A DNA stretch of 64,000 nucleotides from [Lactobacillus] rogosae (GTDB lineage: Bacteria > Bacillota > Clostridia > Lachnospirales > Lachnospiraceae): the NCBI GenBank assembly GCA_900112995.1, contig FONU01000007.1:1-64000 (forward strand), written 5' to 3'. Position 1 is the first letter of the stretch, and the number at the start of each line of letters is the position of its first letter. The notes under the pieces were generated by a model that was not told the origin of the DNA, searched no databases, and worked only from the letters and a program-made list of their open reading frames with translations. A program made the translations under genes and the position numbers. Positions 14,249 through 52,015 of this stretch are shown here, one piece after another.

Positions 14249-14415
14249 TACTATCCATCCATTTCCTATTATAAAAAAGAATGTGCTAAGCACATTCTCG
14301 CGACGAGTGCTGTCGCTTGCGACAAACTACAGCTTCACGCGAGTGCGCATAACTGGCACATAGTGCCTTTTATTTAATAGGAAATTATATTGGAATTTCC
14401 TATTAAATAAAAAAA
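14249..14415. repeat. Intergenic hairpin cluster with three copies of a post-terminator motif
   Basis: Between rnpB and the DUF4012 gene lie three copies of the motif TTCCTATTA(A/T)A(T)AAAA: 14261-14278, 14368-14386 (opposite orientation) and 14394-14415. The last two form an inverted repeat around ATATTGG. Short GC-rich hairpins lie between them (GGCAC/GTGCC, GTCGC/GCGAC). A terminator hairpin AGAATGTGC-TAA-GCACATTCT at 14278-14298 reads into a T-run on the minus strand. No gene is seen here. Confidence 0.6.
14272..14298 (-). terminator. Terminator just upstream of the DUF4012 start
   Basis: On the minus strand AGAATGTGC, loop TTA, GCACATTCT form a 9-bp stem followed by TTTTTTAT. It would stop read-through from rnpB before the DUF4012 gene, whose ATG is only 25 bp further. 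Confidence 0.75.
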
Positions 14416-14803
14416 TATGAGCAGTACTATAAGCCGGGTTATGTCCAGCCAGGCTTTGACCTGACTACTGATGATCATCTATCTAGACCTGCTGTTACCA
14501 GCAGGCTCAAGCAACCTACCTAAAAGCACGACGGGCAGCCGTATCGCTTTATATTTGGTCTTGCTTCGAATGGGGTTTACATAGCCAGTATTGTTACCAA
14601 TACCACGGTAGTCTCTTACACTGCCTTTCCACCCTTACCAATAAGCTCAACACTAAGTGTTAAGCACTGGCGGTATATTTCTGTTGCACTAGCCTTGGAG
14701 TCACCTCCACCGGACGTTATCCGGCATCCTGCCCTGCGAAGCCCGGACTTTCCTCACCTGCGGTCTTTCGACACTTGCAGCCGCGATCATCTGTACTACT
14801 CAC
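14416..14803 (-). ncRNA. rnpB: RNase P RNA
   Basis: Catalytic RNA of RNase P, which matures tRNA 5' ends. On the minus strand the conserved GAGGAAAGTCCGGGC lies near the 5' end, followed by GGTGGAGGTGACTCC and ACAGAAA further on. The ends pair to make helix P1: GAGTAGTAC near 14801 with GTACTGCTC near 14419. A run of T residues follows (14415-14408). The length of about 390 nt is normal. Exact ends are estimated from P1 pairing. It lies just downstream of queA. Confidence 0.93.
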
Positions 14804-47543: not shown

Positions 47544-47763
47544 CAATTAATTTAATTTTTTGTATAAATAAATTATAAACTTTATTAAGTGTTTGGAGAA
47601 GGGGGTGGGGCTTCGGGCACTAGAAAGCTGATTGGATATTTCTAAGACTTTCCTTTTGTTGTGGTTATGAGGGACGCAAACGCTCAGACGCAACGTCCTG
47701 TTGCGTATTCGCTCCATCGCACATCCGTGTGCGATAATTCTATCAGAATTTCCTATTACATAA
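47544..47763. other. Intergenic region with small hairpins and a post-terminator motif
   Basis: Between the heat-shock promoter and the thrC terminator lie two compact hairpins, ACGCAAC-GTCCT-GTTGCGT (about 47689-47707) and TCGCACA-TCCG-TGTGCGA (about 47716-47733). The motif CAGAATTTCCTATTACATAA (from 47744) also occurs here; it is shared with 58013-58035 and, in variant form, with 14394-14415. The rest is without visible genes. Confidence 0.5.
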
Positions 47764-47812
47764 AAAACTGCTGTGTAAATCTGGGGCTTTGCCTGATTTA
47801 CACAGCAGTTTT
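47764..47812 (-). terminator. Terminator of thrC
   Basis: A 17-bp stem AAAACTGCTGTGTAAAT (47764-47780) / ATTTACACAGCAGTTTT (47796-47812), followed on the minus strand by TTTTTTATG. It lies 45 bp after the thrC stop codon. Confidence 0.9.
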
Positions 47813-49722: not shown

Positions 49723-50550
49723 TTGGCTAAAGGTGTTTACAAGACCAATAAAAAAGACGGCTCTGTATATTACAGGGTTTCAATAACATATAAGAATAAA
49801 CATATAAGTATCGGAAGTTATGATGATGAAAATACAGCCTCACAGGTTTACTGTACTGCTTGCGATATACTTTTTAAGCCTGACATATATTATGTTAATA
49901 TTGACCTTCATACTTCATCATACGCCGAATGTCATATTGATTTTCCTTATTCTAAGTTCATAAGTCTTATTAATTTCCGCGACAATGGCATATATATTAA
50001 GACACCCATATACCTGTGCAACAAGGCATTTTTGTATTTTCTTGAACCCGGGAATACTCTTATATTTTCCATTGATGACCTTTTCTATTATTCGCACCAC
50101 ACAATTATGTGCCGCGGCGGTTATTATTTCGTAAATGATTATGGTATGCAGACAAGCATTTTATCCAGATTTGGAATACGCAGTCATTCCGTTAAAGGAA
50201 AAGATTACATTTTCAGGAATAATGACGAACACGATTTCAGATATGAAAATGTGTGTGTAGTCAATAAATATAATGGCGTGAGCCAGATTGTAAAAAACGG
50301 ACGTATAATGTTCCAGAGCAGAATTCACATTAATGGTGATTTTATAATAGGGACTTATGGGACGGAATATGAGGCAGCTATTGCTTATAATAAGGCAGCT
50401 GATATGCTAGAACCGGTGTTTCCGGTGAGTTATACGAGGAATTATATTGAGGATATATCGCACATTACTTATGCGGCTGCTTATAATAGTGTGAAGATTT
50501 CTAAGAGAGTGATTGAGTATGTTAAGTGGCTGGCGGAGAAAGTGAAATAA
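49723..50550 (+). CDS. Protein with two AP2-like domains and a degenerate HNH-like centre
   Basis: The 275-aa product starts at TTG (49723) with AAAGGAG upstream. Residues ~1-50 (YRVSITYKNKHISIGSYDDE, then NTASQVYCTA) and residues ~200-230 (IGTYGTEYEAAIAYNKAADM) both match the AP2 DNA-binding fold. Between them, FRNNDEHDFRYENVCVVNKY resembles the C-terminal half of an AP2-HNH homing endonuclease core, but the His residues of the metal site are not seen. It may be a domesticated DNA-binding protein derived from such an endonuclease. The inverted hairpin elements at 50632-51366 lie just downstream. No operon partner is seen. Confidence 0.55.
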   Translation: MAKGVYKTNKKDGSVYYRVSITYKNKHISIGSYDDENTASQVYCTACDILFKPDIYYVNIDLHTSSYAECHIDFPYSKFISLINFRDNGIYIKTPIYLCNKAFLYFLEPGNTLIFSIDDLFYYSHHTIMCRGGYYFVNDYGMQTSILSRFGIRSHSVKGKDYIFRNNDEHDFRYENVCVVNKYNGVSQIVKNGRIMFQSRIHINGDFIIGTYGTEYEAAIAYNKAADMLEPVFPVSYTRNYIEDISHITYAAAYNSVKISKRVIEYVKWLAEKVK

Positions 50551-50572: not shown

Positions 50573-50632
50573 TTCAATTGACAACGGATATCTTTCAATT
50601 GACAACGGATATCTTTTAGTTGACAACGGACG
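50573..50632. repeat. 21-bp tandem repeat (about 2.8 copies)
   Basis: Units 50573-50593 and 50594-50614 are identical (TTCAATTGACAACGGATATC plus T); the third, 50615-50632, is partial and diverged. Each unit contains TTGACA. The array lies between the AP2 gene stop and the first hairpin element. Confidence 0.85.
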
Positions 50633-50774
50633 CGGGCGGAATAGCCAATATATCAACGTCAGGCACGCTCCCGCTACTCTCAAACGCAGCGGATACTAAG
50701 GCGGTAAAGGACACCGCCTAAGTACCGGCGTTTTCAAAGTACCTGACTTTTGATATATTGGCTATTCCGCCCGC
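50632..50774. repeat. Structured inverted-repeat element, copy 1
   Basis: The outer arms 50632-50656 and 50750-50774 are perfect 25-bp complements (starting GCGGGCGGAATAGCC). Inside, CAGG/CCTG continues the helix. A conserved asymmetric loop follows, CACGCTCCCGCTACTCTC on one side and TCAAAGTA on the other. Then AAACGC/GCGTTT pairs, a bulged stem follows, and the tip is GGCGG-TAAAGGACA-CCGCC. The same core occurs in opposite orientation at 51212-51366. I do not recognise this as any named RNA or mobile element. Transcription direction is unknown. Confidence 0.85.
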
Positions 50775-51211
50775 TGGGTGTCTACTCATTTAGGTATGCG
50801 TTTATTTTTTTAATTTACTTAGCCTCACAAGTAATAACCCTCATACCTGAAATTAACATTGCAATTATTTCAACCGCTGTAATTGTATTATATCTGTTAT
50901 CTTTATTTCTATATTTTCTGTATTATAATTTCATTTTATGACCACCTAATCTACACAATCTATATACTGTAAACTATTATTGCCAGCAATTAACTATCCC
51001 CTTCAGCCTAGAATGTCAGAACTCAATCCATACAGAATATATTCTATAATCTATATTCCCACGACTACACCTATACCCGCCCAACATACAATGTGCAACG
51101 GGCTCTTGTCACTAAACTATATGCATCTATCTTATGGGCAAATACATATCATAGGACATACAGATTGCTCTTACCACTAAACAATCTACATCTATCTTCT
51201 GCCAGCACACA
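50775..51211. other. AT-rich spacer between the two hairpin elements
   Basis: No convincing gene is seen. A 63-codon hydrophobic frame (50750-50941) overlaps the arm of element 1 and lacks a ribosome-binding site. An imperfect 35-bp direct repeat is present at 51102-51136 and 51167-51201 (GCTCTT..CACTAAAC...CATCTATCTT). The whole 50632-51366 unit could be one non-autonomous element with the hairpins as its ends. Confidence 0.4.
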
Positions 51212-51366
51212 GAAATACAACGAAATAGCGGCTATATATCGTTAATCAGGTACTTTGAAAACGCCGGTACTTAGGTGCTGTCCTTTAGCACCTTAGTATC
51301 CGCTGCGTTTGAGAGTAGCGGGAGCGTGCCTGATGTTGATATATAGCCGCTATTTTGTTGTATTTC
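51212..51366. repeat. Structured inverted-repeat element, copy 2 (opposite orientation)
   Basis: Outer arms 51212-51240 and 51338-51366 pair over 29 bp with one G.U-type difference; they differ from those of copy 1 apart from AATAGC and ATATATC segments. The core is the reverse complement of copy 1 with few changes. The tip stem is GGTGC/GCACC in place of GGCGG/CCGCC, so two base pairs have changed on both sides while pairing is kept. The loop sequence is the same. Confidence 0.85.
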
Positions 51367-51438
51367 GTCCGTCTGCCACAAAGCTCAATAGAATTAGAAT
51401 TATTGTCCATTAAGCAGCACCGGTGTGTAATGCATTTT

Positions 51439-51924
51439 TTATTTATTATTGATATAATTCACAAGTCCCTCAGCCTTTATGATTTTCTGCATAAATTCTG
51501 GGAATGCCTGTCCCTGGAATGTCTGTCCTGTTGTCTTATCTGTGATAACGCCGCTGTCAAAGTCGATAGCTACATCATCGCCTGCATTGATAGCCTTAGC
51601 TGCTTCTGGACACTCTATAATAGGAAGTCCGATGTTAATTGAATTTCTGTAGAATATTCTCGCAAATGTCTCTGCAATAACACAGCTTACACCTGCTGCC
51701 TTAATAGCTATAGGTGCGTGCTCTCTTGATGAACCACATCCAAAGTTCTTATTAGCAACAATTATGTCGCCTTTATTAACATTTTTCACAAAATCCTTAT
51801 CGATATCTTCCATACAGTGAGTAGCAAGCTCTGCTGGGTCTGAAGAATTAAGATATCTTGCAGGAATAATAACGTCTGTATCTACATTATCGCCGAATTT
51901 AAAAACTCTTCCTTCTGCTTTCAT
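51439..51924 (-). CDS. leuD: 3-isopropylmalate dehydratase small subunit
   Basis: Swivelling domain of isopropylmalate isomerase (leucine synthesis; isomerises 2- to 3-isopropylmalate together with LeuC). The ~161-aa product starts [20 protein letters not shown] at 51924, preceded by GAGGAG; an upstream in-frame GTG has no such site. [24 protein letters not shown] and [12 protein letters not shown] are the family motifs. It follows leuC by about 90 bp. After its stop lies copy 2 of the hairpin element, about 70 bp away, which may act as transcription end. Confidence 0.93.
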
Positions 51925-52015
51925 ATACTCCTCATTTCCTGTGTATTCGTACACATTTATAATTCATAATAATTATGTATCTTCTAAATATATTCAGTGT
52001 GCTGATTACAATATA

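Follow-up and report, generated by a model that had tools for sequence, protein, structure and literature searches.

What are the two large inverted hairpins that lie in the genome of [Lactobacillus] rogosae, and how do their outer stems come to differ in sequence and still pair? The window in which they occur, meaning the whole stretch of DNA analyzed here, comprises 64,000 nucleotides of contig FONU01000007.1. A first-pass annotation had pointed to the pair and had offered a noncoding RNA or ribozyme, the folded ends of a mobile unit of ~735 bp, or a recombination site as possible identities.

The two hairpins and their surroundings

As Table 1 shows, each hairpin is directly preceded by ACGGAC, and the two tags face outwards; neither the tag nor membership in a family had been part of the annotation. 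The self-folding was as described, with outer stems of 25 bp (100% paired) in copy 1 and 29 bp (97% paired) in copy 2, and the near-identical cores in opposite orientation are evident as an inverted match of 111 nt at 92% identity. Both sides of a stem had been said to change together where the copies differ, and this is what we see: the tip stem of copy 2 is GGTGC/GCACC vs GGCGG/CCGCC in copy 1, and the outer arms are unlike in letters yet pair. The suggested fold check also favors structure: all 200 dinucleotide shuffles fold less well than copy 1 (z = -11.35 on one strand and -12.94 on the other), and likewise less well than copy 2 in the core orientation (z = -11.29). Further repeats lie close by. 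A 21-bp tandem repeat (TTGACAACGGA), present three times at 50573-50630, runs into the tag of hairpin 1, so that the tag region is nearly triplicated, and the spacer holds two direct repeats of 35 nt (51102-51136 and 51167-51201; 83% identical, 65 bp apart). An Rfam search of the window returned a TwoAYGGAY RNA (47620-47778) and bacterial RNase P RNA (14414-14802), both on the minus strand.

Table 1. Parts of the two hairpins, in window coordinates
Feature	Position	Strand	Basis
One-sided tag ACGGAC, base of hairpin 1	50626..50631	+	Read in sequence
Hairpin copy 1, 143 nt	50632..50774	+	Genome's best covariance-model match, 117.1 bits
5' outer arm, copy 1	50632..50656	+	Pairs with 50750-50774, 25/25 bp
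3' outer arm, copy 1	50750..50774	+	Pairs with 5' outer arm
Covariance-model part of copy 1 (inner arm, core, tip)	50650..50755	+	Model match
Core mini-hairpin, copy 1; complementary strand reads GC-GGGA-GC (GNRA-like)	50667..50674	-	Family pattern; coordinates from sequence
Tip stem-loop GGCGG-TAAAGGACA-CCGCC	50700..50718	+	Variable but paired across family (helix 6)
Spacer separating the hairpins, 437 bp	50775..51211	.	Coordinates
Hairpin copy 2, 155 nt, opposite orientation	51212..51366	-	Inverted match, fold
Covariance-model part of copy 2	51237..51342	-	115.5 bits
Mini-hairpin, copy 2; GC-GGGA-GC on strand complementary to core	51318..51325	+	Family pattern; coordinates from sequence
Tag ACGGAC of copy 2 (GTCCGT on +)	51367..51372	-	Read in sequence

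The hairpins are placed between an open reading frame at 49723-50550 (+) and another at 51439-51954 (-), which we take to be leuD. The former encodes 275 aa without a Pfam match above the cut-off and is AP2-like by eye only. In 5 of 10 fetched relatives (L130, L132-L134 and L138), the AP2-like gene is followed by close homologues of what are presumably leuD and leuC, and none of these five has a model match; the sole match among the 10 is in L136, on the upstream side of the AP2-like gene. The annotation had proposed a search for an insertion-free orthologous locus, and none could be defined among the 10 relatives, in which the nearest intergenic sequence is too different. Neither an empty site nor terminal repeats nor a target duplication is assignable for the window copies. 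In L130 (genome G006; leuC 97.9% identical), the interval between the AP2-like gene and leuD carries a different palindrome, GGAGCTGC/GCAGCTCC, which is not the element.

Spread, fold and arms of the family

BLAST finds five copies in the source genome. A covariance model (R1) built on a 13-copy alignment, in which 20 of 35 pairs have double changes, raises this to 25 copies and matches 16 of 22 genomes of the genus, both at E 1e-3. Applied family-wide at E 1e-4 to nine candidates per genome, R1 matches 153 of 397 Lachnospiraceae genomes and 134 of 334 genera. With more candidates scored, a second model (R2) matches 19 of 40 genomes of the family and reveals high copy numbers: in G036 all 97 candidates that were scored are positive, and G057, G045 and G031 have 77, 45 and 34 positives, respectively. 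A class-wide sample gave matches in 11 of 391 genomes, all of them Lachnospiraceae. A pattern scan of named genomes, which had the core motif built into the pattern, listed at least 80 rows, among which 69 titles were placed in the Lachnospiraceae by reading; Mediterraneibacter, Blautia, Acetatifactor, Oribacterium sinus, Lacrimispora, Butyribacter intestini and others are presumed members of that family. Five metagenome bins of one series carry labels of other taxa, namely Gastranaerophilales, Muribaculaceae or Muribaculum (L198, L209, L220, L242 and L254); their model matches are real, and the labels or the bins may be wrong. Within the samples searched, the family is restricted to Lachnospiraceae. 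In genome G350, copies at L120-L122, L124 and L125 adjoin another repeat, TGTCATTCTGAGCGAAGCGAAGAATCTT or near variants of it.

The claim that no named RNA has this core held up. The element has no Rfam match at the gathering level, and the best match below it (E 0.047, 21.6 bits vs a cut-off of 52) is chance-like. No description of the family was found in the open-licence literature (including PMC8040213, PMC8632094 and PMC12306157), although a motif list may hold an unnamed entry for it.

The paired changes noted between the two window copies are general. Across 81 distinct copies, in an alignment that was fitted to the model and leans towards it, 91.1% of cells pair, changes on both sides occur in 33 of 35 pairs, and 711 cells are double changes, whereas shuffling yields 206 +- 14 of them and sliding 94-149. 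Among the letters conserved best are CACGCTYNCGCT, CG.A.CGG and TAAG..CCG.CG, and identical core letters recur across many genera. The core is asymmetric, and its loops have not been repaired to a perfect palindrome. Read on the complementary strand, the mini-hairpin has the pattern GC-GNRA-GC, with G in 80/81, R in 81/81 and A in 80/81 copies, while the N position is occupied by A (45), C (21), G (14) or T (1). The tip stem has several paired alleles in G036.

The separation of a constant core from variable arms is clearest in G036, where we compared the 42 usable of 48 fetched copies; these were the top 48 of at least 97 by score, which favors similar cores. Between copies, the core blocks are 93.7 and 96.1% identical and the arms 52.8 and 56.8%, with no correlation between arm and core identity (r = -0.06). 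Nevertheless, each arm pairs with its own partner: ungapped pairing is 75.2% for a copy's own arms and 52.8% across copies, gapped pairing is 87.5 vs 64.9%, and own-arm pairing exceeds the mean cross value in 42/42 copies. In the G057 burst, the arms hardly vary. A new random arm at each move is ruled out, since arms are shared among the recent copies of G012 and of G057, and it is also contradicted by the weak arm consensus in G036.

The outer limit of the arm is mostly marked by the tag where one is present, which is in fewer than half of the copies. Of 112 copies, 43 have GGACG on the 5' side and 3 have it on the 3' side; CGTC is confined to the opposite end of the hairpin, where it reads on the complementary strand. 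Among 40 copies with GGAC 14-30 nt from the model, pairing reaches the base directly after the tag in 30, and arm length, measured outside the modelled part, is 14-19 nt in 35. Beyond the tag, pairing falls to 31.5%.

Copies also tend to occur as inverted twins. A set of fetched loci gave 26 '+-', 4 '-+' and no same-strand neighbours, but it includes pairs fetched twice (L053/L067 and L024/L079), several orthologous loci, and loci partly picked for closely spaced hits. Because this sample is uneven, we recounted on the genus-wide match list, and among the matches listed there, counted by eye, neighbours less than 700 bp apart are 14 '+-', 4 '-+' and 0 same-strand. The four '-+' neighbours are 621-665 bp apart and lie between the twins of arrays, three of these four cases being orthologous. 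A further set contains nine '+-' pairs and one '++' pair (L338, in G057). Twin units recur whole, in both orientations in G321 and as a unit of 415 bp (98% identity) at two places in G057.

Movement, conservation and the working strand

Near-identical copies at different sites point to recent bursts in some genomes. G012 holds six near-identical copies with common TAGGCGTTTGCGAAAC-type ends, several of them flanked by direct repeats of ~9-12 bp as judged by eye; GGGGCTGTCGCA-type and TAAACTGTAGTTTAAAGGAAT-type ends occur among other copies. Under a strict rule, 6 of 98 copies, with L006 as a doubtful case among the six, have both terminal repeats and a target duplication, vs a mean of 0.3 and a maximum of 1 in the control. 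The element has no gene inside. Of the identities first proposed, a mobile DNA unit fits best. The stretch of ~735 bp consists of two hairpins separated by 437 bp; the pair may be mobile as one unit, as convergent twins elsewhere are.

Shorter elements with the same ends, of ~20 to 140 bp and some of them core-less, are also present in G012 (L322, L324, L326, L327, L329, L330 and L333). In L322 and L329, an identical internal deletion with the same junction takes out the core. Either the core-less version moved or the deletion arose twice, and if it moved, it did so without needing the core. No full-length partner was present among the 13 stretches fetched after an end-pattern search in G012. 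One truncated copy (L103, 4687-4790, minus strand) has a tip stem that runs into TTTTTT and may now serve as a terminator.

No linked enzyme was found for the element, and the fetched stretches contain no recurrent neighbour gene, considering open reading frames from 90 codons upward and flanks that mostly span 1.5 kb. The AP2-like gene was rejected as a partner, as 21 of the 22 genomes of the genus have exactly one copy of it, and the six that lack the element are all among these 21. The Y1 transposase (PF01797) was likewise rejected; it is present in 8 of 16 element-bearing genomes of the genus and in 5 of the 6 that lack the element. Blastn of copy 1 against phage and plasmid records gave no match at E 1e-3, although this search could miss copies that have diverged.

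Selection on structure had been called likely from the paired differences alone. That paired changes are general stood; covariation by itself is no proof of selection here, because template switching between the arms yields the same pattern. We compared nine orthologous sets at three loci (23 species comparisons, which are not independent). Substitutions reach 23.5% in the flanks and 22.6% in the tip, vs 10.1% in the arms and 6.1% in the core. Relative to fourfold sites of the neighbour genes, the core is slow at locus one (11/625 vs 24.3%) and at locus two (34/404 vs 21.9%), but not clearly slower at the third (40/369, or 10.8%, vs 12.4%). At paired sites there are 76 double changes vs 481 one-sided ones, so over short times most paired-site changes are uncompensated.

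A helix that works as RNA is expected to show more G.U than A.C on its working strand. The expected excess is clear in a tRNA control (37 G.U vs 4 A.C; 46 distinct genus tRNAs with a standard T loop, of 91 predicted). The arms show none: in an alignment of 114 copies made without regard to wobble, there are 132 G.T vs 133 A.C, and in the tag-bounded arms of 41 copies, 17 vs 17, with 603 of 661 pairs Watson-Crick. Transversion-type and transition-type swaps are equally frequent (16091 vs 16231 over all sequence pairs). Unpaired positions beyond the tag have 233 G.T vs 119 A.C, so base composition alone can tilt such a count. On the written strand, the core has 107 G.T vs 41 A.C, but three core pairs hold 78 of the former and 4 of the latter, leaving 29 vs 37. 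Consensus folding favors the complementary strand (-31.2 vs -24.2), and in their own predicted folds the complementary strand has 197 G.U vs 43 A.C and the written strand 104 vs 57, counts that lean towards wobble pairs since the folds were picked with wobble allowed.

Orientation to genes is free as well. Of the 91 copies that were classified, 52 have tandem genes on either side (28 in the direction of the genes and 24 against it), 24 have convergent genes and 15 divergent ones; 4 further copies are inside open reading frames of at least 100 codons. Element-free gene pairs nearby are 109 tandem, 20 convergent and 18 divergent. The arms without wobble preference and the lack of orientation bias suggest that the palindrome is kept at the DNA level. 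These results make the annotation's RNA or ribozyme less likely; with the GNRA-like loop and the G.U excess of the complementary strand, the core may have a role as RNA.

A probable mobile DNA palindrome and its alternatives

By computation, the family, its copy number, the arm pairing, the tag, the mostly convergent twins and some target duplications are established. On balance, we favor a non-autonomous, REP/REPIN- and MITE-like palindromic mobile DNA repeat of Lachnospiraceae, which would be recognized by its tag, core and pairing and whose arms would be re-paired by template switching and selection. Its unit comprises the one-sided tag ((G)ACGGAC in the window's genus), a variable pairing arm, the asymmetric core and a variable paired tip. 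For the mechanism, we infer that an enzyme acting in trans would recognize the folded single strand or a cruciform by tag, core and helix rather than by the letters of the arms. Since the terminal repeats differ, the enzymes would differ between lineages, with separate enzymes serving separate lineages. Arm pairing would be upheld by re-copying one arm from the other through template switching, and also because copies that do not fold stop spreading. PMC8794818 describes template switching as able to create and mend hairpins. A stronger version, which we offer only tentatively, is a shape-addressed repeat, in which the enzyme reads tag, core and pairing while the arm letters are rewritten, arm from arm, over time. 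If this is true, about a hundred hairpins in one genome would share a common core and carry individually different self-complementary arms.

An alternative is an ordinary MITE relic under no structural selection, in which covariation comes only from template-switch repair of a long palindrome (hairpins being known to arise and be mended in this way; PMC8794818) and core similarity from recency or gene conversion. The core-less copies of L322 and L329 fit such a relic if they moved rather than lost the core twice, as do the uncorrelated arm and core identities in G036 and the unconstrained core at one of three loci. It accounts poorly, however, for identical core letters over many genera, for asymmetric core loops that were never turned into a perfect palindrome, for pairing that ends at a conserved tag, and for the slow core at two loci, and we regard it as rather unlikely. 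Those same two loci, with core divergence below that of fourfold sites, count towards a structured RNA (a small RNA, or an mRNA processing or termination element) read mainly from the core-complementary strand, with spread by transposition secondary. The GNRA pattern and the better fold of that strand, with its G.U excess, point the same way. Yet that excess comes from a fold chosen with wobble allowed, the third-locus core is not slower than fourfold sites, there is no Rfam match and no orientation bias, and the arms have no wobble preference on either strand, a preference that is clear in tRNAs. We regard a structured RNA as unlikely.

The recombination site of the annotation would correspond to an attC-like folded site, used by an integrase on a single strand, and a folded, strand-asymmetric palindrome with free arm letters is what such a site would look like. 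In attC sites, however, the outer boxes are conserved and the centre is variable, the reverse of a conserved core with variable arms, and an attC-like site is further disfavored by the lack of a recurrent neighbour gene within the flanks given above. We consider it very improbable.

The element shares features with several known repeats. REP/REPIN sequences (PMC3733652) carry a GTAG or CGTC tag, measure 20-40 bp, often form inverted dimers and have variable stems. The element is likewise a dispersed, tagged palindrome with variable stems and a preference for inverted dimers, but its tag is (G)ACGGAC on the 5' side rather than GTAG or CGTC, its window hairpins are 143 and 155 nt long vs 20-40, it has a conserved asymmetric core, it is seen, in the samples searched, only in Lachnospiraceae, and in an enzyme comparison covering PF01797 it has no link to a Y1 (RAYT) transposase. 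Like MITEs, it is short and gene-free and has had recent bursts, and terminal inverted repeats with target duplications, clear in G012, are found for few copies under the strict rule; unlike MITEs, a single folded core sits under several unlike terminal repeats, and the arms vary but pair. In size and fold it resembles, by description alone, bcr1 of Bacillus cereus, a dispersed repeat of ~155 bp with a predicted fold. Among the candidates of PMC11109978, the comparison covers MRSC-65-2, which is described there as a multi-copy hairpin with strong covariation and inconsistent orientation, found in diverse phyla and carrying a UYCCGG repeat. The element shares multiple copies, covariation and inconsistent orientation with it; the spread over diverse phyla and the UYCCGG repeat are features of MRSC-65-2.

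These observations describe a common repeat, for which we found no description, in a major gut-bacterial family. They also carry a caution: strong covariation is commonly read as proving a functional RNA, yet it can stem from a DNA palindrome, and the wobble comparison is a simple first test between the two. Finally, in genomes such as G036, with many copies of one core and different paired arms, template switching from arm to arm could be measured directly.
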